Below are positions 665 through 24,445 of a stretch of 24,638 nucleotides of DNA, piece by piece (position 1 is the stretch's first letter; every line of letters starts with the position of its first letter). The DNA is from a virus. The stretch is from positions 1 to 24,638 of IMG/VR virus record IMGVR_UViG_3300020430_000086; one strand, 5' to 3'. The position numbers and the translations under genes were made by a program. The notes under the pieces were generated by a model that was not told the DNA's origin, did not search any database, and saw only the letters and a list, made by a program, of their open reading frames with translations.

Positions 665-1984
665 TTATACAAAAGTAACTACTGATCCAGAACCTACAGT
701 AAGTGTAGCATTGATTGTAAGAGGTGTCGGCACAACCGCATTATGATTTGCAGTTATTGTGTAATCATTATCCATTTGATTCTCAGATTCGTGAAAAATC
801 TTTTCACCACCTCCACCTGTAGCTCCACCTCCACCATCTGCAAATTCTAACTGTCCTACAGCAGTAGCACCTGATCCACTAATACTTTTTACTTTTAAAA
901 ATTTATCTGCTGCTATCTGGTTATCAGGTAGCTTCATAGTATAAGACTGTCCAGCAGAATGATCTGGGGATTCTACTTTTACACCATGACTATTTTGTGA
1001 ACAGTTAAGTTGTAACTTTCCATTATTACTACTACCATCACCTTTTACTTCTACTGCACCAGAGCCATTAGGATTTAATTTTATATTGCCATTAGATGTA
1101 GATGTATTTATTTCTCTCGTCTGCACATCTAAATCTCCTCCTAGCTGCGGTGTAGTATCTCCTACAACGTCTGAAATTTGATCTACAAACTCTAAAGCAT
1201 TGGCACTACTGTTTACTTTAACTGTCTTACCTGCTGCACTTGTAAAGTTTGCAGGGGTATCTGTTAAAGATGTAAAATCTGTTGCTCCTGTACCAGCCGA
1301 TATACCTGCTAGTTTTGTTTTCTCTGCATCAGTAAAAGCATTTGTATCGGAGTTTGCTTCATAAGCTGTCTTTATCTCAGCGTTAGTTTGATCGGCAGTT
1401 GCATTAGCTTCAATATTATTTAATTTAGTATGGTCAGCATCAGTAAACACGTTGCTATCACTAGCACTTTCTACAAGTGTTCTTATTTCACCTGCGGTTT
1501 GATCTTGGGTTGCATTGGCTTCTATTGCATCTAATTTACTTTTTAGTGCATCTGTAAAAATATTACTGTCACTTGCATTACCTACAGCAGTTCTTATCTC
1601 TGCATCTGTCTGATCTGCGGTGGCATTTTCTTCTATTCCACTTAATTTATCTGTAATCTCTTGTTGAGCAAATAATACTTGGTCGCTATTGGTGTCTAAA
1701 TCTATTTCAGTTAAAACACTACCATCTTTAAAATCTACTTTCTTTGTACTGATATTTGTATCCCTGGTAAATTTAACATTACCTGTACCACTTGGAGGGG
1801 TATTACCAGAAGTAAATTGTACTTCAGATCCTACAATATTATAGTGAGTACCTAATGTTTTAAGGACTCCTCCTACTGTTACATCAATTTCTGTATTAGC
1901 TAAGAAAGCAAAACTTATGGCAAAGTTATTTTGACTACCTGTACCATTATGATTTTGTGAGGTAGCTGTTGTGTTAGTAGCCAT
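665..1984 (-). CDS. Tail fibre protein, T7 gp17-like N-terminus (439 aa)
   Basis: Residues 1 to about 110 have the features of the T7 gp17 N-terminal tail-attachment domain: an opening rich in Thr/Asn/Gly with NNFAISFAFL, then DVTVGGV, a YTR-type FTRDTN motif and LTEIDLDTNSDQVLFAQQEI. This part docks the fibre on the tail tube. Residues 117-227 are three tandem 37-residue repeats. After that come a beta-rich region (DTPQLGGDLD-type motif), a glycine-rich linker near residue 390, and a C-terminal tip ending VGSGSVVTFV. The length is shorter than T7 gp17 (553 aa), so the receptor-binding part is probably shared with the two fibre genes downstream. The gene starts 2 nt after the gp16-like gene ends. 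Confidence 0.88.
   Translation of the reverse strand: MATNTTATSQNHNGTGSQNNFAISFAFLANTEIDVTVGGVLKTLGTHYNIVGSEVQFTSGNTPPSGTGNVKFTRDTNISTKKVDFKDGSVLTEIDLDTNSDQVLFAQQEITDKLSGIEENATADQTDAEIRTAVGNASDSNIFTDALKSKLDAIEANATQDQTAGEIRTLVESASDSNVFTDADHTKLNNIEANATADQTNAEIKTAYEANSDTNAFTDAEKTKLAGISAGTGATDFTSLTDTPANFTSAAGKTVKVNSSANALEFVDQISDVVGDTTPQLGGDLDVQTREINTSTSNGNIKLNPNGSGAVEVKGDGSSNNGKLQLNCSQNSHGVKVESPDHSAGQSYTMKLPDNQIAADKFLKVKSISGSGATAVGQLEFADGGGGATGGGGEKIFHESENQMDNDYTITANHNAVVPTPLTINATLTVGSGSVVTFV
1304..1636 (-). repeat. Three in-frame tandem repeats of 111 nt (37 aa) in the tail fibre
   Basis: The fibre contains three consecutive 37-residue units beginning IEENATADQT, IEANATQDQT and IEANATADQT. Each continues with an AEI[RK]T motif, then SD[ST]N.FTDA, and ends in K(S/T)KL plus two residues. 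Spacing is exact, with no insertions. Such Asn-Ala-Thr repeats are known in phage fibres as elongated trimeric stalk segments; here they probably set fibre length. The nucleotide copies have diverged, mostly at third positions, so the repeats look old and selected at the protein level. Confidence 0.9.
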
Positions 1985-4900: not shown

Positions 4901-5946
4901 TCAATACCACCACCTGTAAGTTTTGGGTTGAATGTAGATTCTATTTTGTCACCGACCTCTGGTATTTGTGTCGTATCTCCTATCCCTGGTGCTTTTTTTG
5001 TATCTAAAGGTTTAATTAAATCAATAACTTTTTCATCTAATAATTCGTTACCAGCTTCATCAATTCCAAGGTCTTTAAATTTTAATTTTCTTTTACGTTC
5101 TAAGGTTGCTAAGATCTTTGGAGCTAAAGGAGAGTTTCTAAAACCTTTTAAAGCTACAGATAGTCCTGTTAAAGTTTCTCCAATAACTGCACCACCCAAA
5201 GCCTTTCTAAACCTTGCTTCTATAGGAGATATATCATCATCAGCTTTAAATACTGATGCTGGCATTTTTAATATATCTATTACTGGTTCTAAAGTACCTT
5301 CATACTCATCAACCATGTTGTAAAGGTTTTGCTCAAATGGATCTTCTACTACAAAATCTGTAAGAAAACCTGCAACAAGGTTTCTTGTCCAAGGGTTTTT
5401 AATACCTTTAAGACCTTTGCTAAAGATCCCCATAGGCAATAGGAATTGAGTTATAGCTTGTGGTATTTGAAAAAATGCACCATCATCTTCTCTTTCAAAA
5501 TAACTGTAATCAATAAGGTCGTTATTGTCGTATGGATTCCCTGCTAGGTAATCGTATATATCATCTGCAAACTCTACAGTTTCGTTTATTGCTTTTAAAG
5601 GGCCAGTAATAGCACCTCTAATTACTTGTGATGTCTTTGTCTTAGTAATTTTCTCATCAATTTCTTCTCTTTTTTCTTCTGCTTCATTTCTTATTCTTGA
5701 TCTATTTTCTAATATTTCTTCAAAACTTCTTTGATCTCCTAAAAATTTGTTATCAAAAAAATCTACTATACCTGCCTGACTTTTATTTATGGCTTTACTT
5801 ACAGATGATAAAGGTTGATTATCAAGCTTTTGAAATAAGGCATCTGTTTCTGGTGTTTCTATTTTTTGATTTTCTTCTTCTTCCTTTCTTCTTTTTTCTT
5901 CTTCTTCTTCGTTGTTAAGAAGATTAGTAATGTTGGAATCAGTCAT
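1987..5946 (-). CDS. Internal virion protein, T7 gp16-like position and size (1319 aa)
   Basis: A 1319-residue protein, almost the length of T7 gp16 (1318 aa), in the gp16 position between the gp15-like protein and the fibre. It begins with a charged stretch (NNEEEEEKRRKEEEE, residues 11-25) encoded by a purine tract. Long helical regions follow, with few recognisable motifs and a short hydrophobic patch (GGGFAVSAALIA) in the C-terminal half. In T7, gp16 leaves the capsid during infection and builds a channel across the envelope. Unlike T7 gp16, I see no transglycosylase motif at the N-terminus; that domain is in the upstream gene. The start is 2 nt after the upstream stop. Assignment rests on synteny and length more than on motifs. 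Confidence 0.8.
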   Translation of the reverse strand: MTDSNITNLLNNEEEEEKRRKEEEENQKIETPETDALFQKLDNQPLSSVSKAINKSQAGIVDFFDNKFLGDQRSFEEILENRSRIRNEAEEKREEIDEKITKTKTSQVIRGAITGPLKAINETVEFADDIYDYLAGNPYDNNDLIDYSYFEREDDGAFFQIPQAITQFLLPMGIFSKGLKGIKNPWTRNLVAGFLTDFVVEDPFEQNLYNMVDEYEGTLEPVIDILKMPASVFKADDDISPIEARFRKALGGAVIGETLTGLSVALKGFRNSPLAPKILATLERKRKLKFKDLGIDEAGNELLDEKVIDLIKPLDTKKAPGIGDTTQIPEVGDKIESTFNPKLTGGGIDELTDSLLNIAEYFKSTDELDQWARSVGLGDMFVASQRQTKGQALEAARFFLQEFGPFLKTKNGKIINNPRYLPATTISINQMMNKNGEAVFNLSAALHNAIATKNVDLIKEIQPEFLKQVKVLKGLVYLNKGVGALTSQTLGARRIAGDLRDTVTEAKDFGRRSRGTENVNNINRDFIESVGVSEIDETFNKIFDLVEKGDQEAALALTRLTKYLNVAGGNPEVMKHMIKKGLLLKGVEFTNEIFINSILSGPPTHIVNLLSTSLNTLSKPLSQSAGAAKIVFRKDMDISFADTLFSRRDNLVFKPEFNSDEFIKGWKQFIYMGESLGDAFNIARKAFKTNENVLDRGAMVSDAQRVSRNINAEDVRNFADQNVVTRGTVKPFVDVFLADAWLPSIYNNFRRINGFGSRMLITEDEFLKQVNFRAYVKAEAWEQGVRKNLQGEQLKRYINTQTEKVFKIVDTGSVGKMPKSIQDMYKKAKDFAAEATFTKELDPKSFSGKIQNFAQHPYGRIVFPFVRTPLNILKTQMRYTPVVNLFMSEYRQALRSADPNIAARARGEMYLGGGFAVSAALIARDIENPFAEIAMTGGGPNTVGFGDTTEANRQLVKQKKEEGWQPYSFRFLVRDSNGEIVLTKSGKPKYKYISYKRLDPWSGTFMLLADFMDIEGQIGSQQTNDIATAITVSIARNLTDRTYIRGLTEVAEAIHNPYALQTLLARRAANIINPVAGLGRSVQRATDKTKLDTTYYPADEMNTGIRQVLNELARTIPFYNANLEPDRNWLTGSVVEYPSGFGPDTFDILNPFTATNTKDNYVLSVINDLNISLQPPKKFFFRKQGIQGSGIELTSKQYASYIKYLAFNTKEDGQRLIVSLYKKLNQPDMKAFYKTAMGENVDSTNQDVMVGTQDNARAILSKNIKKIVADYKVKARNEWLRLPENRELFKKYSANIEAINNETTKATVTNLEKIKNLGN

Positions 5947-5948
5947 GT

Positions 5949-8606
5949 TTAATCAAGAAATTTTTTGTATTTAGCGTCAGGATCTTCAGTTTGTCCATCT
6001 TTAGAATAGACACCCCAAGCTAAATAACCATTACCTTTAAGTGCTTGTGTTTCATCAAACACTAATTTAGCAGCTATAGCGTTAAGAACAGGATCATATA
6101 AATCTTCATTATTATCTATACCAAGTTTAGGTTGTCTATCATTTCCTAATTCCATACCTTTGTAGTTATACATATTTATTTGAAATAGTCCATAAGAAGC
6201 TTCTGGATTTTTCTCTGTACCACCATAGAAAGCATTTGCCTTGTTAGCTGATTCTGCCATAGCAATAGCAGTCATTATTTTTGCTTGTTCTTTTGTAAAG
6301 CCTGCATTAAGTAATAACTTATTTATTTGTTGCTTAGTAAGAGGTTGTTTTTTATCTGTTTTTAATTTAATTTCTTGTCTTAGTTTATTTAATTCTACTT
6401 CTGGTAATTTATTTTTTGTCTTTGTTTCTATTTTTGTTTCGTTAGGAGTTACAGCTTCTACTATCGGTACAATTAATTCTTGACCTGCTTTTATTAAATC
6501 AGCGTTAGTAATATTATTTGCTTCCATAAAATCTTTTAAAGAAATACCAAACTCTTCTGCTAATTGACTTAAAGTATCTCCTGGTTGTACTTCAACTGTA
6601 GTAGGTGAATCGTCATCACTAAAAGCAGCAGCTTCAAAATTATCAGTATCTACCAATAGTTTCATTGGTTCATATATTTTAGTTTTATTACCAAATCCAT
6701 ATTCACCTGTTTGTAAGAATCTAATTATTCGATCTGCTTCTGACTTTCCAACAATATTTGTAAAGTTCATTTTTGCTTTTTCAGCCACTACTTCTTCGAT
6801 AAGCTTATCTCTATTTTCTTTTGTAATACCTCCCATTCTTATAAGTTCTGCAATAACTCTTGATTCAACTGAAGGTAGACTTGTGTTACCAAAGAAATCA
6901 CCAGTTTCGTTATCGTTATTATTACCATCACCTTCTATAGCCACCCCTTCAAGTCCGCTTTGGTTTTCATTAATAAATTTTGTATTATTGTCAACTTGTT
7001 TTGATGAAGGGTCTAATAAAGCGTTTAGATCATTAATTAATTTATTATTATATGTTGTTTTAAGTTGTTCATATTTAGCTTCAAGTTGTCCTGTGTCCGC
7101 ATCAGGATTAGCTAATTTATATTCTCTAAATTCATTTTTAAAAGCTTCAGTATTAAGTTTTACAGTAGTTAATTGTTGTTCTTTTCCTATTTGTGAGAAT
7201 ATTTTAAACTTTGGATCTAATGTTAGTAAAAGTTTTGATTGATCTTCATATCTAACAAAATAACTATTCAAAGGTGTTAAGACTCCTTTATCAACTGTAC
7301 CTGCAAGTTTCATTAAAGTATTTAATCGGTTTACATTAAGATCACTTTTTAATGTTCCAGGGTCAAGAAACCAAGCCATAGCTGCTGTTCTTGCATCTGC
7401 TAAGGTATCAAAATTATTTTCAGTGATTCTTTTAAGTAATATTCCAAATTTTTGATTTGTATCACCATCTAAAGCTTCTGCGTTTGCTTGTAATTTTGTT
7501 GCAAGTAATGGATTAGCGTCTTGTAATTTTTCTAATAATGCAACTGCTTCTTCTCCTTTACCTGCTGTGTATAAAGCAGCAACATTCAACATACCTAATT
7601 CTAACGCTTCTTCTTTTGCTCTTTTTGCTTCTGCCCTATTTCTTTTATCTGCTTTATCAGTATAGTCTTCAACATCTTCAAGTAATTTATTTTCCATTTC
7701 TACATAGTCAGGGTGATCTAATAAAGTTAATTTTCCACCAGGACCAAAAGGAAATTGACTTGCACTTTTAAAAACTGATAAAGCTAAATCTTCATCACCA
7801 GTTTCAAAACCAATTCTTTTTGCTTCAGCACTAAGACTATTTAATATAGTTTTATTAATAGCTGATCTATTGGCTGAACTTAATCCTAATTTATTAATAT
7901 CATTCTCAAATTGATCTATAGAAGCTGTTAATAATAAAAATTGATTTTTACTTACTTCATCTGAATCTGGACCTGCTGTTTGAAAATTTATTATATTTTT
8001 AGCAAGGCCAGCAGCATCAATTTTTAATTTTTCTACTTGAAATTCTTCGTGTTTCTTTTCGTGAATGTCAGTAATTTTAGTTGTAGCATTTATTAAATAT
8101 GGAAAAAATTTCTTGTTAAAGGTATCACTATCTACATCACCTAAAGAATTTATAACTTCTGTTCTTGTTTCATTTAGCCAATCTGAAAATTCTGTTGAAT
8201 CTAAAGAAAAGTTTGATAAAGGTACTCCATCTACATTTGCGTCATTATATTCAGTTTTAAATTTGCTTTCTAAACTACCACCTAAAATTGTAGCTTTTGT
8301 TCTTTTAAAAACTTTGTTATATAGTCTATTACCACTAAAAAGTTTATTAGATCTAACATATTTAGATGCGTCAGCCCAATCGTTAGTTGAACTATCTAAA
8401 GCATCATTTAAAGCTTCTTCTGATATTTCTGCTCTTTTCTCATCAATTTTAGTTTCAATAAATTTTTCTAAAACTGGATTTACAACCTTTAAAGTTTCGG
8501 CAAGTGCCATCATATTTGTTTTAGGCAAAACCTTTACAGGTTCTACAAATGTATTAACAGGTTGTGCAAAGGATTGGTAAGCAGTACTTTGAAAACTTGA
8601 TGACAT
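5949..8606 (-). CDS. Internal virion protein, gp15 position, with C-terminal LysM and lytic transglycosylase domains (885 aa)
   Basis: The first 650 residues or so are a mainly helical, acidic region as expected for a T7 gp15-like core protein. Residues about 668-716 form a LysM peptidoglycan-binding module (VEVQPGDTLSQLAEEFGI, then NNIT.ADLI.AGQELIVP). A Lys/Thr-rich linker leads to an SLT/lysozyme-like domain from about residue 760 to the end. That domain has AMAES with the putative catalytic Glu at residue 785, then SYGLFQIN, DP..NA.AA and a final GYLAWGVYSKDG segment. The protein should cut peptidoglycan during DNA ejection. It is longer than T7 gp15 (747 aa), matching the added C-terminal modules. 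It lies 2 nt before gp16-like and 4 nt after gp14-like. Confidence 0.87.
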   Translation of the reverse strand: MSSSFQSTAYQSFAQPVNTFVEPVKVLPKTNMMALAETLKVVNPVLEKFIETKIDEKRAEISEEALNDALDSSTNDWADASKYVRSNKLFSGNRLYNKVFKRTKATILGGSLESKFKTEYNDANVDGVPLSNFSLDSTEFSDWLNETRTEVINSLGDVDSDTFNKKFFPYLINATTKITDIHEKKHEEFQVEKLKIDAAGLAKNIINFQTAGPDSDEVSKNQFLLLTASIDQFENDINKLGLSSANRSAINKTILNSLSAEAKRIGFETGDEDLALSVFKSASQFPFGPGGKLTLLDHPDYVEMENKLLEDVEDYTDKADKRNRAEAKRAKEEALELGMLNVAALYTAGKGEEAVALLEKLQDANPLLATKLQANAEALDGDTNQKFGILLKRITENNFDTLADARTAAMAWFLDPGTLKSDLNVNRLNTLMKLAGTVDKGVLTPLNSYFVRYEDQSKLLLTLDPKFKIFSQIGKEQQLTTVKLNTEAFKNEFREYKLANPDADTGQLEAKYEQLKTTYNNKLINDLNALLDPSSKQVDNNTKFINENQSGLEGVAIEGDGNNNDNETGDFFGNTSLPSVESRVIAELIRMGGITKENRDKLIEEVVAEKAKMNFTNIVGKSEADRIIRFLQTGEYGFGNKTKIYEPMKLLVDTDNFEAAAFSDDDSPTTVEVQPGDTLSQLAEEFGISLKDFMEANNITNADLIKAGQELIVPIVEAVTPNETKIETKTKNKLPEVELNKLRQEIKLKTDKKQPLTKQQINKLLLNAGFTKEQAKIMTAIAMAESANKANAFYGGTEKNPEASYGLFQINMYNYKGMELGNDRQPKLGIDNNEDLYDPVLNAIAAKLVFDETQALKGNGYLAWGVYSKDGQTEDPDAKYKKFLD

Positions 8607-8610
8607 AATT

Positions 8611-9129
8611 TTAACCGTCTAAAGCAATTTGAGTTTGCAAGGCACTTGCACCTGCACCTAATAATACTGATCCTATAGAAGGTATTTGATTATATGCTTG
8701 TTGTGTCTGACTTCTGTATTGATTTCTTATATTTTGGTATTGTGCCTGTGTTTGTTGTATAGATCTCATGTGTTGTCTCCTTGCTGATTCTAATGATTGT
8801 CTTATAGATTCTCTATAATTTGCTGCTTGCCTTTCATTATCTTGTAAAATCAAACCAAAACTTACTCCCGATCTTCCAGAAGCCATAAGTTTAGCCCTAG
8901 CTCTTAATGAATCAATACTTTTTGCAAATTTATCTTGTGCAGATGTTTTTTCTTTATCACTTAATTGTTCTCTTAAAGCTGCCTGTTTATTTCTTTTATC
9001 AGTTTCAGCATTAGCTATACCTGCAACTTCAACTTGAGCAGCCTGTTCAGCTTTATCTTGTGCAGCACTACGCATAGCAAGCCCTTGAAATAAACTTATA
9101 CCAGCACTAGCAGCTACAAGATTACACAT
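8611..9129 (-). CDS. Internal virion protein, T7 gp14-like (172 aa)
   Basis: A 172-residue protein in the T7 gp14 position, directly after the gp13-like gene. It opens MCNLVAASAGISLFQGLAM, a hydrophobic segment, continues as a long Gln/Ala/Arg-rich helical region with coiled-coil character (KAEQAAQVEVAG, then RRQHMRSIQQTQAQYQ), and ends with a second hydrophobic segment (SVLLGAGASALQTQIAL). Two apolar ends around a helical centre fit gp14, which inserts in the outer membrane as the first part of the ejection channel (known for T7). The start codon is immediately next to the previous stop. The assignment is by position, size and composition. Confidence 0.8.
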   Translation of the reverse strand: MCNLVAASAGISLFQGLAMRSAAQDKAEQAAQVEVAGIANAETDKRNKQAALREQLSDKEKTSAQDKFAKSIDSLRARAKLMASGRSGVSFGLILQDNERQAANYRESIRQSLESARRQHMRSIQQTQAQYQNIRNQYRSQTQQAYNQIPSIGSVLLGAGASALQTQIALDG

Positions 9130-9582
9130 TTAGGCGATCCTCAAAAATTCATAAAATGGTTTTTCATGTTGTCCATACTTTTCGTGATACTTTATAAAAA
9201 CAAAACCTAAAGCTTCTAACCACTTTATAGCAGAATGATTCTCTGCATATACAAAATTATATAGGAGTTTATAAGATTTCAACAAACTATCTACCCATTT
9301 TCTGCCTTTTCTAATAAGTTGTATTTTATATTTTTTATTAGAAAACAATTCATCAGTACAAATCATAAATATACAACCACCTTTTATTACTCCACATAAC
9401 CCCATAGGTTGATCTTCGTCACCTGCTATAGTTTGTATCTTTTGACCAAATAGATAACATAAACGTAAAGAATCTGCTGCATCTCTTCCTGTTTGATATA
9501 AACCTTCTAGTCGATCTATTTCTCTCATGTTTTTACATACATAATTTAAGTCTGATAGTTTTGATTTTCTTAAATATCCCAT
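9130..9582 (-). CDS. T7 gp13-like protein with GNAT-type fold (150 aa)
   Basis: A 150-residue protein in the T7 gp13 position, between tail tube B and gp14; T7 gp13 has 138 residues. The C-terminal part contains NHSAIKWLEALGFVF, which matches the N..A..W...GF signature of the last helix-strand of GNAT acetyltransferases. The N-terminus (MGYLRKSKLSDLNYV) also fits a GNAT beta1-alpha1 start. The glycine-rich acetyl-CoA loop (Q/RxxGxG/A) is not evident: the corresponding stretch reads IQLIRKGRKW, so catalysis is doubtful and a structural or assembly role is more likely. Its start overlaps the tail tube B stop by one base (TAATG). Confidence 0.75.
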   Translation of the reverse strand: MGYLRKSKLSDLNYVCKNMREIDRLEGLYQTGRDAADSLRLCYLFGQKIQTIAGDEDQPMGLCGVIKGGCIFMICTDELFSNKKYKIQLIRKGRKWVDSLLKSYKLLYNFVYAENHSAIKWLEALGFVFIKYHEKYGQHEKPFYEFLRIA

Positions 9583-18348: not shown

Positions 18349-18500
18349 TGCTATATTGTTTATTAAGTTTGAGACTTCGGTCACTTTCCAAAGCCTACAG
18401 CCCTCAGGTTTATGAGAAGGTGCTATCAAGAACGAGAGGGCAACTAATATACAAAGAAGCACTAACAACCTATGCTACTGTGTTGTTGGTGCTTTCTTTT
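18349..18500 (+). ncRNA. Candidate plus-strand small RNA (about 140 nt)
   Basis: A possible extended -10 promoter (TGCTATATT, 18349-18357) is followed by about 140 nt with three potential hairpins. These are a GAC-UUCG-GTC tetraloop (18373-18382), GCCCTC/GAGGGC arms (18400-18405 and 18436-18441), and the terminator hairpin ending in TTTCTTTT at 18500. The terminator pairs better in plus-strand RNA. No -35 box is seen and no open frame is convincing. The RNA would end at the exonuclease stop codon, convergent to that gene. This is a structural inference only; it could equally be unused leader sequence. Confidence 0.3.
18454..18500. terminator. Terminator-like hairpin after the exonuclease gene
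   Basis: Core arms GCACTAACAAC (18459-18469) and GTTGTTGGTGC (18482-18492) pair over 11 bp around a 12-nt loop. They extend by A-T/G-C pairs with one bulged T into the flanking AAAGAA/TTTCTTT. The single non-Watson-Crick position is U-G in plus-strand RNA but A-C in minus-strand RNA, and the plus strand ends TTTCTTTT. On the minus strand it begins right after the exonuclease stop and has a weaker tail (TTCTTTGTATATT). It probably works in both directions. Confidence 0.65.
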
Positions 18501-19233
18501 ATGGATTCCAAAGTTTTACTTCACCTGTCTGATAATTATAATCTCCTTCTCTTAATATTCTTGTCAGTCTTGCGTTCAAGATAGCGTCAGCTATTGTATA
18601 TCCTTTCTTTGTATATGTTTCCTGTACCTTAGACCATAGTGCTTCTTTAGTATCAGGTGTATCAGCCAATGTCTTGCTTGCTGTAACCATACCCATACCT
18701 TTGATTCCTAGTATTCCGTCACCTGCATCACCAGCTAGAGACATTTCAAACCAATGTCTAGTTGCTTTCTTGTTTGTTATATGTTCTATCTCTTCAGCAG
18801 CTATAAGCTTACAAGGTAAAGTTCTCATATCCTTATCAACTGAAACTATAATCGGATCTTTGTATCTGCCATTGGTAGCAAGCAAACCTAATACATCATC
18901 ACCTTCTAGGTTTTCATAGGCAACAGTTTCATATCTTTGTTTTACCTCTTTAATAACTCTTTTAAGTGCAAGTGGTTTGCGTTTACCTATCCTGTTAATC
19001 TTGTACTCAGGGAATATCTCATGTCGAAATGTAGGGTATGAAGTAAAGCACATAACTATGTCATGGTTATTATCAGCAATACCTCTATAAACATCTAATC
19101 TGTTTTCAATCAGATTAAGTATATCTCTTTCATCAGAGTGAAGAGTATGCTCCCATTCATTCCAACGTGTGTCTTCTTCACAAGCACAACAGGAATTGAA
19201 TATCAACCAATCAGCATCTATTAATAGTGTCAT
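18499..19233 (-). CDS. 5'-3' exonuclease, T7 gp6-like FEN/PIN-fold (244 aa)
   Basis: The protein starts MTLLIDADWLIFNSC, with the first metal-binding Asp residues at 6 and 8. It has YENLEGDDVLGLLA, IIVSVDKDMRTLP and EMSLAGDAGDGILGIKGMGMVTA. These are the acidic clusters and the helix-hairpin-helix (GIKGMGMVTA) of the T7 gp6 / FEN-1 nuclease family. The role is degradation of host DNA for nucleotides and removal of RNA primers. Length 244 against 300 in T7. The gene begins 2 nt after the primase-helicase, where T7-like phages usually have DNA polymerase in between. Shine-Dalgarno GGAGA lies 7 nt before the start. Confidence 0.92.
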   Translation of the reverse strand: MTLLIDADWLIFNSCCACEEDTRWNEWEHTLHSDERDILNLIENRLDVYRGIADNNHDIVMCFTSYPTFRHEIFPEYKINRIGKRKPLALKRVIKEVKQRYETVAYENLEGDDVLGLLATNGRYKDPIIVSVDKDMRTLPCKLIAAEEIEHITNKKATRHWFEMSLAGDAGDGILGIKGMGMVTASKTLADTPDTKEALWSKVQETYTKKGYTIADAILNARLTRILREGDYNYQTGEVKLWNP

Positions 19234-19235
19234 AA

Positions 19236-20843
19236 TTAATCTCCAAAGGTGTCTTCATAAACAACTAACCGACCTGTGTTCTGGTCGTACAGTAACCTAT
19301 CTACTTCTCCTGTCATACCAGTATGTCTTGACTTAAGTATCTTTAGTTGTAGTCTTGATCTTTCGTATGCTTCTCCTACTTGGTTTCGTGAAGCACCAAG
19401 AACAATGTCACTTAACTGAACAAGACTATGAGATCCTCGTAGATCAGAAACAGATATGTCTCTACCTTCCTCATGCCCTTGGCCTTGTGGTCTGCGTAGA
19501 TGGCTGACTACTATCAAAGCTATATTTGTAGATTCACATAAGCTTCTAAGCTTAGTCATAGTTACATCTATAGCTCTTCGTTCATTGTCTAGCTCAAGAC
19601 CAGACATGACTATGGATATGTGATCCAGTATTACTACCTTTACTTTATCTACTGTTGCCAGATACCTTATCTGTTCAAGCAATACATCAGGATCAAGACT
19701 ACCAAAGTGGTTATATAAAAATAGATTTCTTGTAGATGTCAGCTTATCAAATGCAGCTTTGATCTCTTCATCTGTATATCTATTGTCGTTGAGATGTAAA
19801 GGGCAGTTAAGATCAATGCCAACCAATCCCTGTAATGTTCTTTGTACTGTTTCTTCTAGTCCTATATAACCTACCTTGATGTCACGTTGCAGAAAGTGAT
19901 AAGCCATCTCTCTACATATAGTGCTTTTACCTGCACCACTACCACTAGCTATCGTAAACAGTTGGCTTGGAAATAAACCTCTTGTATATTCATTTAGTTT
20001 TGGATAAGGAAAGTCTGATATAGGTAGGCTTGTTTCTTTATTAAATAGATCCCAGGCATCAGCAGCATTTATTAAACTGTCTGGTCTTACTGGTCTAGCT
20101 TTCCATAATCTATCTCTTACAAGTTCACCTTCGTTTAATACAAGATGTTCATTGACATCTTTTCTATCTAGTCTTGCAATAGCAACCTTACCTTTAGGCA
20201 AGACCTCCATACATTTCTCACTAGCTTTCTCCCCTGCTTCATCATTATCAAAGCAAAGAACTATACGACAATAATTATCAAGCCATTTATAGTTTGCTGC
20301 CAGATACTTGGCTGCTGACTGCACTCCTGACGGAATAGATATACAAGGAAACTTATTACCTTGTATCTGACTAGCACTCATGCAGTCAATCTCTCCCTCG
20401 CAACAGGTAACAAAGACTGATCCATTACTACCATGTTGTCTCCATAAATGCTGACCCCATAGTTGTACTTTTGACATATCACCAATCCATATAAACTTCT
20501 TGTCTTGAAACCTTATATGCTGTGCTACATCTTTACCGAATTGATCCTTGTAAGTAGCCACTTGAACTGGTTGTCCTCTATATTCTCCCTGTCCATAACC
20601 AAATAGTTCGCAAGTCTCTTTAGTGATTCCACGTTTAGGTAGAGCTATGGGTGTCACCTTTAATAACTTAGGTGATGGCTTTCTCATTGGAATGATGTTA
20701 GTCAATTTCTTTTCTTTCTTGTTTGGGTAGTAGGTATAGCCACAGTCCATAGTAAAGCAATGTTCATGTCCATCATCAAAGACTGCACAATTCTTTTTGC
20801 CACACTCAGGACAAATCTTTTTACTCTTGTATTGGCTCTTCAT
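19236..20843 (-). CDS. Bifunctional primase-helicase, T7 gp4-like (535 aa)
   Basis: An N-terminal zinc-binding domain has C11, C14, C29 and C34 (CPEC ... HCFTMDC). The TOPRIM primase core has TCCEGEIDC with Glu near 149 and CFDNDEAG with Asp near 199. The C-terminal RecA-type helicase has Walker A GSGAGKST at 301-308, Walker B VVILDH near 403-408, and VVSHLRRP near 445-452. The length (535) is close to T7 gp4A (566), so this is the full primase-helicase form, which unwinds DNA and makes primers at the fork. The C-terminus is acidic with a near-terminal Phe (YEDTFGD), like the T7 tail that binds DNA polymerase. The start lies inside the end of the 51-aa gene. Confidence 0.95.
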   Translation of the reverse strand: MKSQYKSKKICPECGKKNCAVFDDGHEHCFTMDCGYTYYPNKKEKKLTNIIPMRKPSPKLLKVTPIALPKRGITKETCELFGYGQGEYRGQPVQVATYKDQFGKDVAQHIRFQDKKFIWIGDMSKVQLWGQHLWRQHGSNGSVFVTCCEGEIDCMSASQIQGNKFPCISIPSGVQSAAKYLAANYKWLDNYCRIVLCFDNDEAGEKASEKCMEVLPKGKVAIARLDRKDVNEHLVLNEGELVRDRLWKARPVRPDSLINAADAWDLFNKETSLPISDFPYPKLNEYTRGLFPSQLFTIASGSGAGKSTICREMAYHFLQRDIKVGYIGLEETVQRTLQGLVGIDLNCPLHLNDNRYTDEEIKAAFDKLTSTRNLFLYNHFGSLDPDVLLEQIRYLATVDKVKVVILDHISIVMSGLELDNERRAIDVTMTKLRSLCESTNIALIVVSHLRRPQGQGHEEGRDISVSDLRGSHSLVQLSDIVLGASRNQVGEAYERSRLQLKILKSRHTGMTGEVDRLLYDQNTGRLVVYEDTFGD

Positions 20844-22048: not shown

Positions 22049-24445
22049 TTATGTAAATATATATGGTGCTGTCAAGACATCTTTAATGTCATAGTCTCCC
22101 ATATCTAGTGCTGTTGGTAATTTACTGGTATCACTTAACTGGCTTGCTGTCTGTTGATACAAATTATCTAAATTATTATCGCTATAAATTTTAAAAAAAC
22201 TTTGCTTCACACATTCAATAAATTTTTGTAGTTCACTTGCAGGGCTTCCATAGCAGTCATGGATAACACAAAAGTTTGTAAGTCCATGCTTGCTTGCTTC
22301 AACTAAACTCAAGTGACAATGTGCAGCATCAAGACTATGAATATAATTACTAGGAAAACCTTGTGACTGTTTACGTTTATCTACTTTACTTCTATCAGGT
22401 TCGTTTAAATGTAACCTCATACTTGAATCGCTTAATTTAGTTCTGACAATTTTAATATCATTCTTGTGGTAGTTTTGCTGCACAAAAAAACCTGATGGTG
22501 TATGCCAGGAAATAGATTTATTTTCGTTATTAAAACAAGAAGCTGTAGTCCGTAGATATTTTAGGACTTCATAACTTTCTGGGGTTACATATTTAACTGC
22601 TTGTTCTATCATGCTTGCCAGATAAAAATTGTTCTTAAAATTTTTTGCCATAAAAACATTTTCATTAACAAAATATTTTTCTATGTAGTTTGCTATCCCG
22701 AATGTTGTTGAATTATATGGAATCATAAGTACAGGTTTCTTTATAAACTTTCTTGTTAATTTATCTTTTAACTTATACCATTCTTTAGCTTGTTCAGAGT
22801 CTTCACTCTTCAGTAATAGCAATAGAATATCAAGGATTTGTTTATATAAATCCTGTGGTTGTTTTTCATTTTGCAGATTTACTTTATTAGCTAAATGTTT
22901 ATTTGATATAAGACCAGCTATATGTTGATAGCCATTATTTGTACCATCAAGGCAGCAAACATGATGAGAGATATAACCCCAACCTGTGATTTGAAACTCA
23001 GACCATTCTCTGCACCAGGCAAGGAATTGAAATGGTTCTTTTGCCTTACCCCAGATACCAACATTAGCTAGAGGATCTTTATAAACTTCTTCTGCAAGAT
23101 CAGTACCTTCTATATAAGCCCACTCTAATCTTTCCTCGTATGTATGTTTATTCATGCCAAAATGATTAGCACCTGCTATGGCAAGCCAGTTTAAATCTTG
23201 TTTAGTTTTTATCTCTGCACCTTTATAAAACCTATGTAATCCTCTTGCAATATCATTACCTTGTGGGTGAAAGTGTGCAGTCATTGGGTACATACGACCA
23301 GTAAAATCAAACTGATAAACGTGATAAAATTTTTCACCAATATATCTTTTAGCTGTATCAATCATGGATAGTATCTGATACCGCTTGACCATATTCTGAT
23401 GGTTCATATCATGTATTAAGGAAGCCATATATCGCCACTCTTTTCTTGCTTCTTTATTTGTATCTATATCGAGTGGTTTTGTTGGCAGTTCTGCAAGCTC
23501 CCTATCAATTAATGAACCAACCTCTATTCGTTCCTCCCAACAGTATTCAAGAGTTTCTAATACAAATTGATTTACTTCCCAGGCTGTCTGACTCGCCAGA
23601 GTTAACGCTTTCAGACTTGTTGATAAGTCTTCTGTTCGTAGTGTGTTTAGGTAGTCTCGATTAGAACTCTTTATAGCTTTTGCTTTTAGTCTGTCTGTAA
23701 AATATCCACCCTCGTCAATGGACTTCCAAGGGCGAGGTTTGTCCAAGCAAGGAAGATATATAGGAAAGGCAGCTATCCTGTTTGTTCTACCCTGTCTTAT
23801 ATATTTCATAAACCTTTCAGTAAAAACTACATAACTTGCTGATGTTTTACCTACTTTTTTATTAATCATTCTGACCATATTAATTTTTATCATTACCAAC
23901 TCAATCAACTTAAGACCAACCTTAACCTTATTACCTCTTGTCCATGTCTGAAACTCATGGCCTTTACTGTTCATGTGATAGACCATAAGATTTCTTTTAT
24001 ACCTTTCATGCCTGGTATCTCTGGTATGTTTCTTTATATTCCTAAAATGTTTAGGGTCTAGTTCTTCAAACTTGGTAAACCTAAGTTCGTCTTCTAACTT
24101 CTGCCCTATCTTTAAAGCAGTAGTAACAGTTGTCTTTAGTTGCGAAGCATTATCCAGTAGTACTTTGAAAGCAATAAAGGAAACTACATCTACGTCTGGG
24201 AACTGTGAAAGAAACAAAGCAGAGACAGCTTTGACACCAACCTTACCGCTAAGACTTTCTTCTATATGTTCTTCTATGGCTTTGCTTAATCTCTGTAGTC
24301 CTGACTCTATGATGTTGCGAGCATAATAGTTCTCTGATTCTCTACCTTTTTCAATGTTTTTATTTTGTTTACTGATCTTGTTATAAGCTGAGATACTACA
24401 GATGCTTTGCTCTAGCTCCAGTTGTTTCTTGCTAGGCTCAGTCAT
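22049..24445 (-). CDS. Single-subunit T7-type RNA polymerase (798 aa)
   Basis: Motifs occur in T7 order: DFTGRMYPM near residue 380; CCLDGTNNGYQHIAG with catalytic Asp500 (T7 D537); LTRKFIKKPVLMIPYNS with R565, K569 and Y577 at the same spacing as T7 R627, K631 and Y639; FPSNYIHSLDAAH near 697-709; and CVIHDCYG with His729 and Asp730 (T7 H811, D812). The protein is shorter than T7 RNAP (883 aa), mainly in the N-terminal promoter-binding domain. The loop that reads promoter bases lies around residues 653-690 and differs from T7. The enzyme transcribes the phage's own middle and late genes. The start overlaps the integrase stop by 8 nt, suggesting the two are co-translated. Confidence 0.97.
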   Translation of the reverse strand: MTEPSKKQLELEQSICSISAYNKISKQNKNIEKGRESENYYARNIIESGLQRLSKAIEEHIEESLSGKVGVKAVSALFLSQFPDVDVVSFIAFKVLLDNASQLKTTVTTALKIGQKLEDELRFTKFEELDPKHFRNIKKHTRDTRHERYKRNLMVYHMNSKGHEFQTWTRGNKVKVGLKLIELVMIKINMVRMINKKVGKTSASYVVFTERFMKYIRQGRTNRIAAFPIYLPCLDKPRPWKSIDEGGYFTDRLKAKAIKSSNRDYLNTLRTEDLSTSLKALTLASQTAWEVNQFVLETLEYCWEERIEVGSLIDRELAELPTKPLDIDTNKEARKEWRYMASLIHDMNHQNMVKRYQILSMIDTAKRYIGEKFYHVYQFDFTGRMYPMTAHFHPQGNDIARGLHRFYKGAEIKTKQDLNWLAIAGANHFGMNKHTYEERLEWAYIEGTDLAEEVYKDPLANVGIWGKAKEPFQFLAWCREWSEFQITGWGYISHHVCCLDGTNNGYQHIAGLISNKHLANKVNLQNEKQPQDLYKQILDILLLLLKSEDSEQAKEWYKLKDKLTRKFIKKPVLMIPYNSTTFGIANYIEKYFVNENVFMAKNFKNNFYLASMIEQAVKYVTPESYEVLKYLRTTASCFNNENKSISWHTPSGFFVQQNYHKNDIKIVRTKLSDSSMRLHLNEPDRSKVDKRKQSQGFPSNYIHSLDAAHCHLSLVEASKHGLTNFCVIHDCYGSPASELQKFIECVKQSFFKIYSDNNLDNLYQQTASQLSDTSKLPTALDMGDYDIKDVLTAPYIFT

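Follow-up and report, generated by a model that had tools for sequence, protein, structure and literature searches.

The internal virion proteins of podoviruses, which leave the capsid at infection, are the closest described counterparts of the protein considered here. In phage T7, gp14, gp15 and gp16 exit the head and build a channel across the envelope, in which gp15 is a hexameric periplasmic tunnel and the N-terminus of gp16, with its transglycosylase, forms the wings of that tunnel (PMC8954989). In other phages the enzyme has been described on the gp15 counterpart: phiKMV gp36 is a virion-associated lysin with a C-terminal lysozyme active in vitro (PMC5380687), the octameric ejection protein (OEP) of Pectobacterium phage PhiM1, its gp15 counterpart, carries a lysozyme-like domain at Gly718-Ser903 (PMC11440229), and SP6 gp36 and K1E/K1-5 gp35 are gp15-like proteins with lysozyme activity (PMC8954989, PMC5380687). 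Here we describe an 885-residue protein encoded in 24,638 nucleotides of viral DNA (IMG/VR record IMGVR_UViG_3300020430_000086, positions 1 to 24,638), the whole of which we call the window. In our judgement it is probably a gp15-position ejection protein that ends in a LysM plus SLT_3 peptidoglycan-hydrolase cassette, exchanged by recombination among relatives, in a marine T7-like phage near the Prochlorococcus phages that lack a DNA polymerase. The architecture itself is already known from phiKMV gp36, PhiM1 OEP and the SP6/K1E homologues, and the headline of the preliminary description is therefore not new in kind. The less expected part is that the segment behaves as an exchangeable cassette, not that the enzyme sits at the C-terminus. 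Searches of open-access titles and abstracts listed no paper on such a LysM/glucosaminidase/lysozyme cassette of an ejection protein, and a paper outside that set may exist.

The gene lies between a gp14-like gene upstream (PF24072) and a gp16-like gene downstream (phrog_6651), which is the position of T7 gp15, and its open reading frame ends two bases ahead of that of the 1319-residue gp16-like protein (Table 1). Read directly from the sequence are the domains, the conserved Glu785, the place next to gp16 and, as described below, the replacement of the module by partly unrelated hydrolases. The preliminary description had placed a lytic domain and LysM at the C-terminus of this protein, with Glu785 and SYGLFQIN as its marks, and this placement holds. 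Glu785 and 29 more positions are invariant in 27/27 SLT_3 modules, including the 39%-identical homologue of Prochlorococcus phage P-SCSP1i. We take Glu785 to be the catalytic acid, as in the lysozyme superfamily. The label "SLT-type" was right in that the domain is lysozyme-like (PF18896, SLT_3) and wrong as to family, since PF01464 (SLT) is unmatched in the window at E≤0.01. The sequence is compatible with either lytic transglycosylase or muramidase chemistry. Searching the PDB with phmmer (P0001) gave LysM matches and weak lysozyme matches. The structure model of the protein (mean predicted local distance difference test score, pLDDT, 68) is all helix to residue ~650 apart from short bridges; the modelled LysM matches the fold of 4uz2 (Z 8.7, root-mean-square deviation 0.8 over 46 residues), and the SLT_3 part is of low confidence. 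A Foldseek search of the model against the PDB returned no match at E≤0.001. The helical body is co-linear with T7 gp15 structures (6yt5, Z 6.7; 7k5c, Z 6.6; 6ysz, Z 6.1; 9jyy, Z 6.1), model residues 55-379 falling on residues 59-374 of the 6ysz chain with a root-mean-square deviation of 7.5 over 248 residues.

Relatives carry different modules at the same place. Type A, the SLT_3 domain with SYGLFQIN, is found in the window and 18 further rows of the comparison, and type B, in which the motif reads SIGLLQLN or SIGLFQLN, at loci L009, L010, L011, L023, L047, L055, L058, L059, L061, L067, L068, L074, L081 and L106. A glucosaminidase (PF01832, E 8e-14 to 2e-16) takes the place at L018, L019, L086, L092, L094, L104, L109, L112, L121 and L126, the L019 module matching solved FlgJ with E 2.6e-8, and at L108 LysM is followed by a stretch matching the PHROG endolysin phrog_90 (E 3.3e-11). 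Against the PDB, the only matches of this last domain of L108 were weak ones, to a single all-helical protein (best E 0.0098), and we judged them to be due to chance. LysM is absent from L026 (type A), from L067 and L106 (type B) and from P-SCSP1i; it appears to be helpful but dispensable, its presence changing at least 3 times on the tree of gp15 bodies. Scanning with the L019 module brought in a further group of 19 loci (L135 to L152 and L156) whose glucosaminidase module is 68-72% identical to that of L019. In the 14 of these that were inspected, the open frame closes with the glucosaminidase, with the next gene starting a few bases on at most; the N-terminus of uncut frames looks, by eye, similar to that of the gp15-position protein of the window, and none of the group's 15 distinct ends contains LysM. 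The gp16-like protein of one member, L144, is closest to internal virion proteins of roseophages, cyanophages and pelagiphages (25-29% identity among the ten matches listed). A scan with the type A module gave 22 loci, 21 on contigs already collected and one new (L186). Our census of ends by the last 100 residues merges contigs with identical ends, and we have not used it for contig counts.

The evidence for exchange comes from segments of one gene that disagree about its relationships. L009 is 94% identical to the window over residues 1-150 and 90% over 151-300, dropping to 47% in the catalytic part; L021, L022, L024, L025 and L026 show only 42-48% over residues 1-300, yet 91-95% in the catalytic part; and L018 and L019 fall from 82-88% over residues 1-300 to 18-19%, that is, to unrelated sequence, at the end. 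Two pairs of contigs allow the breakpoints to be placed. L086 and L068 agree at 98.1% over 2619 bases up to gp15 codon 667, directly after IEAGAFT, are unalignable over the next 684 and 448 bases, and agree again at 96.6% over 322 bases from the gp16 ATG. L108 and L112 agree at 96.5% over 1963 bases to within a few codons of FEAGAVS (L108) or FEAGAFS (L112), are unalignable over 772 and 692 bases, and then agree at 94.3% over 5371 columns, exactly from the gp16 ATG. In both pairs, then, the left breakpoint falls at an EAGA-[FV]-[ST] peptide and the right one at the gp16 start codon. L086 also shares 770 bases at 91% with L092, despite bodies that are 24% identical and gp16 proteins that are 27% identical (84 residues), and L106 combines a type B cassette (SLT_3b) 91.8% identical to that of L068 with a gp16 start 96.7% identical to that of L104 over 243 bases. 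A peptide of the pattern E[AGSP][GASR][AVTS]F[STE] stands ahead of the cassette in 34/41 gp15-position sequences; variants occur in L002, L059, L061 and L108, none is seen within 60 residues in L103, and L066 and L094 are cut off upstream.

Among 84 pairs (26 rows; L012, L013, L025 and L092 left out) that are alike over residues 1-300, identity is below 55% in 49 for the catalytic part, 25 for LysM and 21 for residues 451-560, and in 0 each for 1-150, 151-300, 301-450 and 561-655, although the way the pairs were selected partly fixed the outcome for 1-150, 151-300 and 561-655. Discordance is thus highest in the catalytic part. Four-fold silent sites of the window and L024 match at 86% in the module (44 sites) vs 54% in gp16 (327 sites; P 3e-5), with 54% also in the body (92 sites), and the likeness of the modules is therefore not just protein conservation. 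Window-L022 (P 2e-5) and L019-L092 (P 5e-4) behave likewise, and window-L009 (P 2e-3) and L011-L004 (P 7e-5) differ in the opposite direction; the Fisher tests cover six of the ten pairs compared and were computed from rounded percentages. On the gp15-body tree (30 rows), 9 changes are needed to account for the three module types, 2 being the minimum possible, and well-supported branches force at least 5 (type A), 6 (type B) and 3 (glucosaminidase). The gp16 tree (44 rows) needs 10 changes for five types, the minimum being 4, with at least 6, 5 and 3 forced. The body tree was built from rows longer than 600 residues, excluding named phages, rows repeating the last 400 residues of an earlier one and the nine contigs of a later pattern scan; the gp16 tree, a "quick" tree that drew a long-branch warning for L103, omits L086 and L106 (gp16 shorter than 200 residues) as well as L125, which lies on the contig of L068. 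These change counts rest on approximate trees, as both flanking genes may themselves recombine.

Several observations weigh against our interpretation or restrict it. Module labels are clustered on both trees: shuffled labels average 12.3 changes (gp15 body) and 20.9 (gp16), and shuffles as low as observed occur in 4/200 and 0/200, respectively, so that exchange recurs but is not free. Nor is the junction the sole exchange site, since whole bodies seem to have been replaced in L058 and L017. Window-L017 shows no silent-site difference (P 0.59), the body being the odd part, and in L009-L058 the silent sites agree at 78% of 36 in the module, 85% of 413 in gp16 and 52% of 105 in the body. The gp15 block 451-560 (window 6927-7256) is also variable, with the 21 discordant pairs given above. 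L103, with no Pfam or PHROG match, and P-SCSP2, with no Pfam hydrolase, have no recognised enzyme at the hydrolase place. As to the identity of the body, the T7 gp15 matches (Z 6.1-6.7) lie in a grey zone where helical proteins often match by chance, and hhalign with shallow profiles detected no sequence similarity of the window proteins to T7 gp15 or gp16. Finally, the compared loci are metagenomic contigs.

To see where lytic domains sit more widely, 28 records were surveyed: the window, 16 IMG/VR contigs, fetched as relatives of the 885-residue protein, and 11 named phages. SLT_3 is present in 18 of them (the window, all 16 contigs and P-SCSP1i), each time in an open frame of 829-961 residues, and LysM in 16 (the window and 15 of the contigs). 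PF01464 is matched in four: by T7 gp16 at residues 15-127 (108.6 bits), the N-terminal place the preliminary description had given it, and weakly (25.7-30.1 bits) by L006, L007 and P-SCSP1i, in the same module that matches SLT_3. L006 and L007, close relatives of type A, score 30.1 bits (cut-off 21.3); type B modules and P-SCSP1i score 18-26. Neither family is found anywhere in the records of Gjalp, HTVC119P, HTVC011P, HTVC019P, CRP-114, ProddE, Syn5, P-SSP7 and P-SCSP2, and the gp15-position proteins of Gjalp, ProddE, CRP-114, HTVC119P, HTVC011P, HTVC019P, T7 and P-SSP7 have no Pfam hydrolase at E≤0.1. Such negatives are weak because phiKMV gp36, whose lysozyme has been measured, has no Pfam match either. 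Syn5 gp44 (L039:3263-5770) gives a weak C-terminal match to the phage lysozyme family PF18013 (E 0.013, residues 695-815), and this cyanophage may have the same arrangement. Within the 28 records a recognised SLT domain on gp16 is confined to T7, and the window's group has its lytic domain at the C-terminus of the predicted gp15-position protein.

The preliminary description saw no transglycosylase in the gp16-like protein, and a second such domain was looked for there and not found. Over its whole length Pfam contains no hydrolase family matching at E≤1, and over the first ~620 residues of the window's protein and 18 relatives it reports no hydrolase. The only strong PHROGs match is phrog_6651 (internal virion protein), hhalign of the N-terminus against T7 gp16 detected no similarity, and phmmer (P0002) against the PDB gave nothing useful. 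A divergent hydrolase may nevertheless be present, because the experimentally known lysozyme domain of phiKMV gp36 is invisible to Pfam and the AlphaFold model of residues 1-620 is unusable (pLDDT 33.5). The protein begins with MTDSNI..LLNN and a glutamate-rich stretch (5860-5946) whose length varies among relatives. MTDSNINNLL or a near copy starts gp16 even where the protein is otherwise 25-29% identical; nine contigs reached through a scan for this gp16-start pattern carry it by choice.

How the enzyme came to its present place, and what it is for, allow other explanations. The preliminary description suggested that the domain had changed partner at the gp15/gp16 border; the border is indeed an exchange site, and that part of the proposal stands. 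That T7's own SLT domain moved from the start of gp16 across the junction to the end of gp15 is quite improbable. The SLT_3 domain does lie only a few bases from where gp16 starts, and SLT and SLT_3 are both lysozyme-like, with the weak PF01464 scores of the relatives' modules leaving room for a distant kinship. The window's domain, however, belongs to SLT_3 and not to the SLT family of T7 gp16: it has no PF01464 match where T7 scores 108 bits, the nine named relatives listed above have none anywhere, and glucosaminidase and endolysin-like domains occur at the same place. It is also conceivable, at a very low probability, that the SLT_3 domain is catalytically dead and only binds peptidoglycan; the invariance of Glu785 and 29 other positions down to the P-SCSP1i homologue speaks against this, as does the replacement of SLT_3 by predicted hydrolases of other families.

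The swaps themselves could be assembly chimeras of metagenomic contigs, formed at short conserved sequences. The recombinants L086, L106 and L108 are each a single contig, and the brackets are short conserved stretches of the kind that could mislead an assembler. Against such an artefact, the glucosaminidase on a window-like body recurs in L018 and L019, the L021/L024 group consists of six contigs, type B on a window-like body is seen in L009, L010, L011 and L023, and type A modules are 87-97% identical to that of the window rather than copies of one sequence; we regard chimeras as a most improbable source of the pattern. An unlikely reading, though one we take a little more seriously, is that the module serves also, or mainly, as the lysis enzyme rather than for entry. 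In one contig of 37,115 bases (G008, comprising L130, L009 and L131), the best 25 of 40 Pfam families, for 37 of the 45 open reading frames listed, include no other hydrolase, and its lysis enzyme is thus divergent, weaker-matching or absent. Against this reading, endolysins can be too divergent to detect in such a search, the module forms part of a protein in the position of a structural ejection protein, like the virion-associated lysin phiKMV gp36 (PMC5380687), and the counterpart protein of P-SCSP2 has no Pfam hydrolase. The same contig carries an integrase.

We return to a cassette that would act at entry, where we infer both its enzyme activity and its role. On infection the gp14-, gp15- and gp16-like proteins would exit the head and the gp15-like body would form a periplasmic tunnel, with LysM and SLT_3 at its far end; LysM would bind each tail end to glycan and SLT_3 would open a local hole in the wall. 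With the enzyme on the tunnel protein, it would be delivered in the copy number of that protein and not of gp16, and since the cassette is a self-contained tail between conserved brackets, it could be replaced without disturbing the tunnel. More tentatively, and with somewhat less confidence than an even chance would warrant, we propose that the gp15/gp16 junction is a dedicated socket, where lineages whose tunnel proteins are only 24-50% identical swap cassettes of at least three catalytic families, LysM being present or absent, by recombination at short brackets (an EAGAFT-like peptide and the first gp16 codons). If this is so, turnover of the wall-cutting step at entry is independent of the tunnel, and it may follow differences in host peptidoglycan. 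The exchange amounts to a natural domain-swap experiment, in which the far end of the tunnel protein tolerates quite different cargo. Over the few kilobases compared, natural pairs differ almost only in the wall-cutting enzyme, and such pairs could let one ask if the wall-cutting step limits the cells that a podovirus can enter. Ejection proteins of marine podoviruses are poorly annotated, and the C-terminus of one of them here gains a predicted enzyme.

The window is the middle portion of a T7-like phage genome, on the minus strand, with the genes in the order RNA polymerase, primase-helicase, exonuclease, portal, capsid, tail tube genes, gp13-like, gp14-like, the 885-residue protein, gp16-like and tail fibre; the primase-helicase, exonuclease, capsid and tail tube genes are named from relatives' matches and position. 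Its RNA polymerase is 71% identical over the full length, and its portal 81%, to those of Prochlorococcus phage P-SCSP2, the nearest isolate. The uncultured clone MedDCM-OCT-S08-C159 reaches 73% over part of the RNA polymerase and 82% in the portal, and records beyond these two ~30% and 50-52%, respectively. DNA polymerase A (PF00476) is not matched in the window, a 24.6-kilobase fragment, in P-SCSP1i and P-SCSP2 or in 10 related contigs, also fragments, one of them of 37 kilobases; it is present in T7, phiKMV, Gjalp, CRP-114 and HTVC119P. MPP-C is a clade of cyanopodoviruses without DNA polymerase (PMC9860041). The window fits this clade by its missing PF00476 and its RNA polymerase and portal closest to P-SCSP2, and Prochlorococcus is a candidate host, judging from the nearest isolate only. 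The exonuclease directly follows the primase-helicase (18499-20843), with no DNA polymerase A between them, as in P-SCSP1i and P-SCSP2. In the tail fibre protein (665-1984), three repeat units of ~37 residues each were spotted by eye (NATADQTDAEIRTAV.., NATQDQTAGEIRTLV.., NATADQTNAEIKTAY..).

Table 1. Features of the window, with the ejection protein and its cassette first.
Feature	Position	Strand	Evidence
gp15-position ejection protein, 885 residues: helical body (1 to ~657) and C-terminal hydrolase cassette	5949..8606	(-)	
LysM module, residues 672-714	6465..6593	(-)	PF01476 53.6 bits, E 2.1e-14; cut-off 20.9
SLT_3 lysozyme-like domain, residues ~765-853	6048..6314	(-)	PF18896 over residues 766-852, 48.7 bits, E 1.1e-12; cut-off 27
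Glu785 codon, putative catalytic acid	6252..6254	(-)	conserved in 27/27 SLT_3 modules
SYGLFQIN motif, residues 804-811	6174..6197	(-)	
Cassette left bracket EAAAFS, residues 658-663	6618..6635	(-)	
Cassette right bracket, start of gp16-like gene (MTDSNITNLL)	5917..5946	(-)	
gp16-like internal virion protein, 1319 residues	1987..5946	(-)	phrog_6651 E 1.1e-43
gp14-like internal virion protein	8611-9129	(-)	PF24072 E 3.8e-10
gp13-like	9130-9582	(-)	PF11090
T7-type tail fibre	665-1984	(-)	
RNA polymerase	22049-24445	(-)	named by likeness to P-SCSP2 RNA polymerase

Of the systems set out at the beginning, phiKMV gp36 (898 residues, annotated "internal virion lysozyme motif") is a gp15-position protein directly ahead of the gp16-like gp37 and ends in a lysozyme. 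Unlike the window protein, it has no Pfam match at E≤0.1, hence no recognised LysM, and it belongs to phrog_2083 (1074 bits), a family without a match in the window protein at E≤1. PhiM1 OEP shares the C-terminal lysozyme-like domain on the gp15 counterpart, whereas the gp16-like protein of that phage, TEP, has a second, endolysin-like domain (PMC11440229) of which none is recognised in the gp16-like protein of the window. SP6 gp36 and K1E/K1-5 gp35 are likened to the window protein by description, and the excerpts describing them do not mention LysM. T7 shares the gene order, and its gp15 structures run co-linear with the helical body at middling, grey-zone Z scores; its SLT domain, however, lies N-terminally in gp16, its gp15 matches no Pfam hydrolase, and LysM is absent. 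For P-SCSP1a and P-SCSP2, the genes put forward as candidates for internal virion proteins have been described as unannotatable and dissimilar to each other (PMC9860041). The gp15-position protein of P-SCSP2 (MPP-C), unlike that of the window, has no recognised hydrolase. That of P-SCSP1i (MPP-C), by comparison, has no LysM and a body without BLAST match to the window protein beyond the SLT_3 module, and yet it ends in SLT_3 as the window protein does (L033:6493-9351, 51.9 bits); it is annotated as hypothetical, and its C-terminal domain suggests a function for it.

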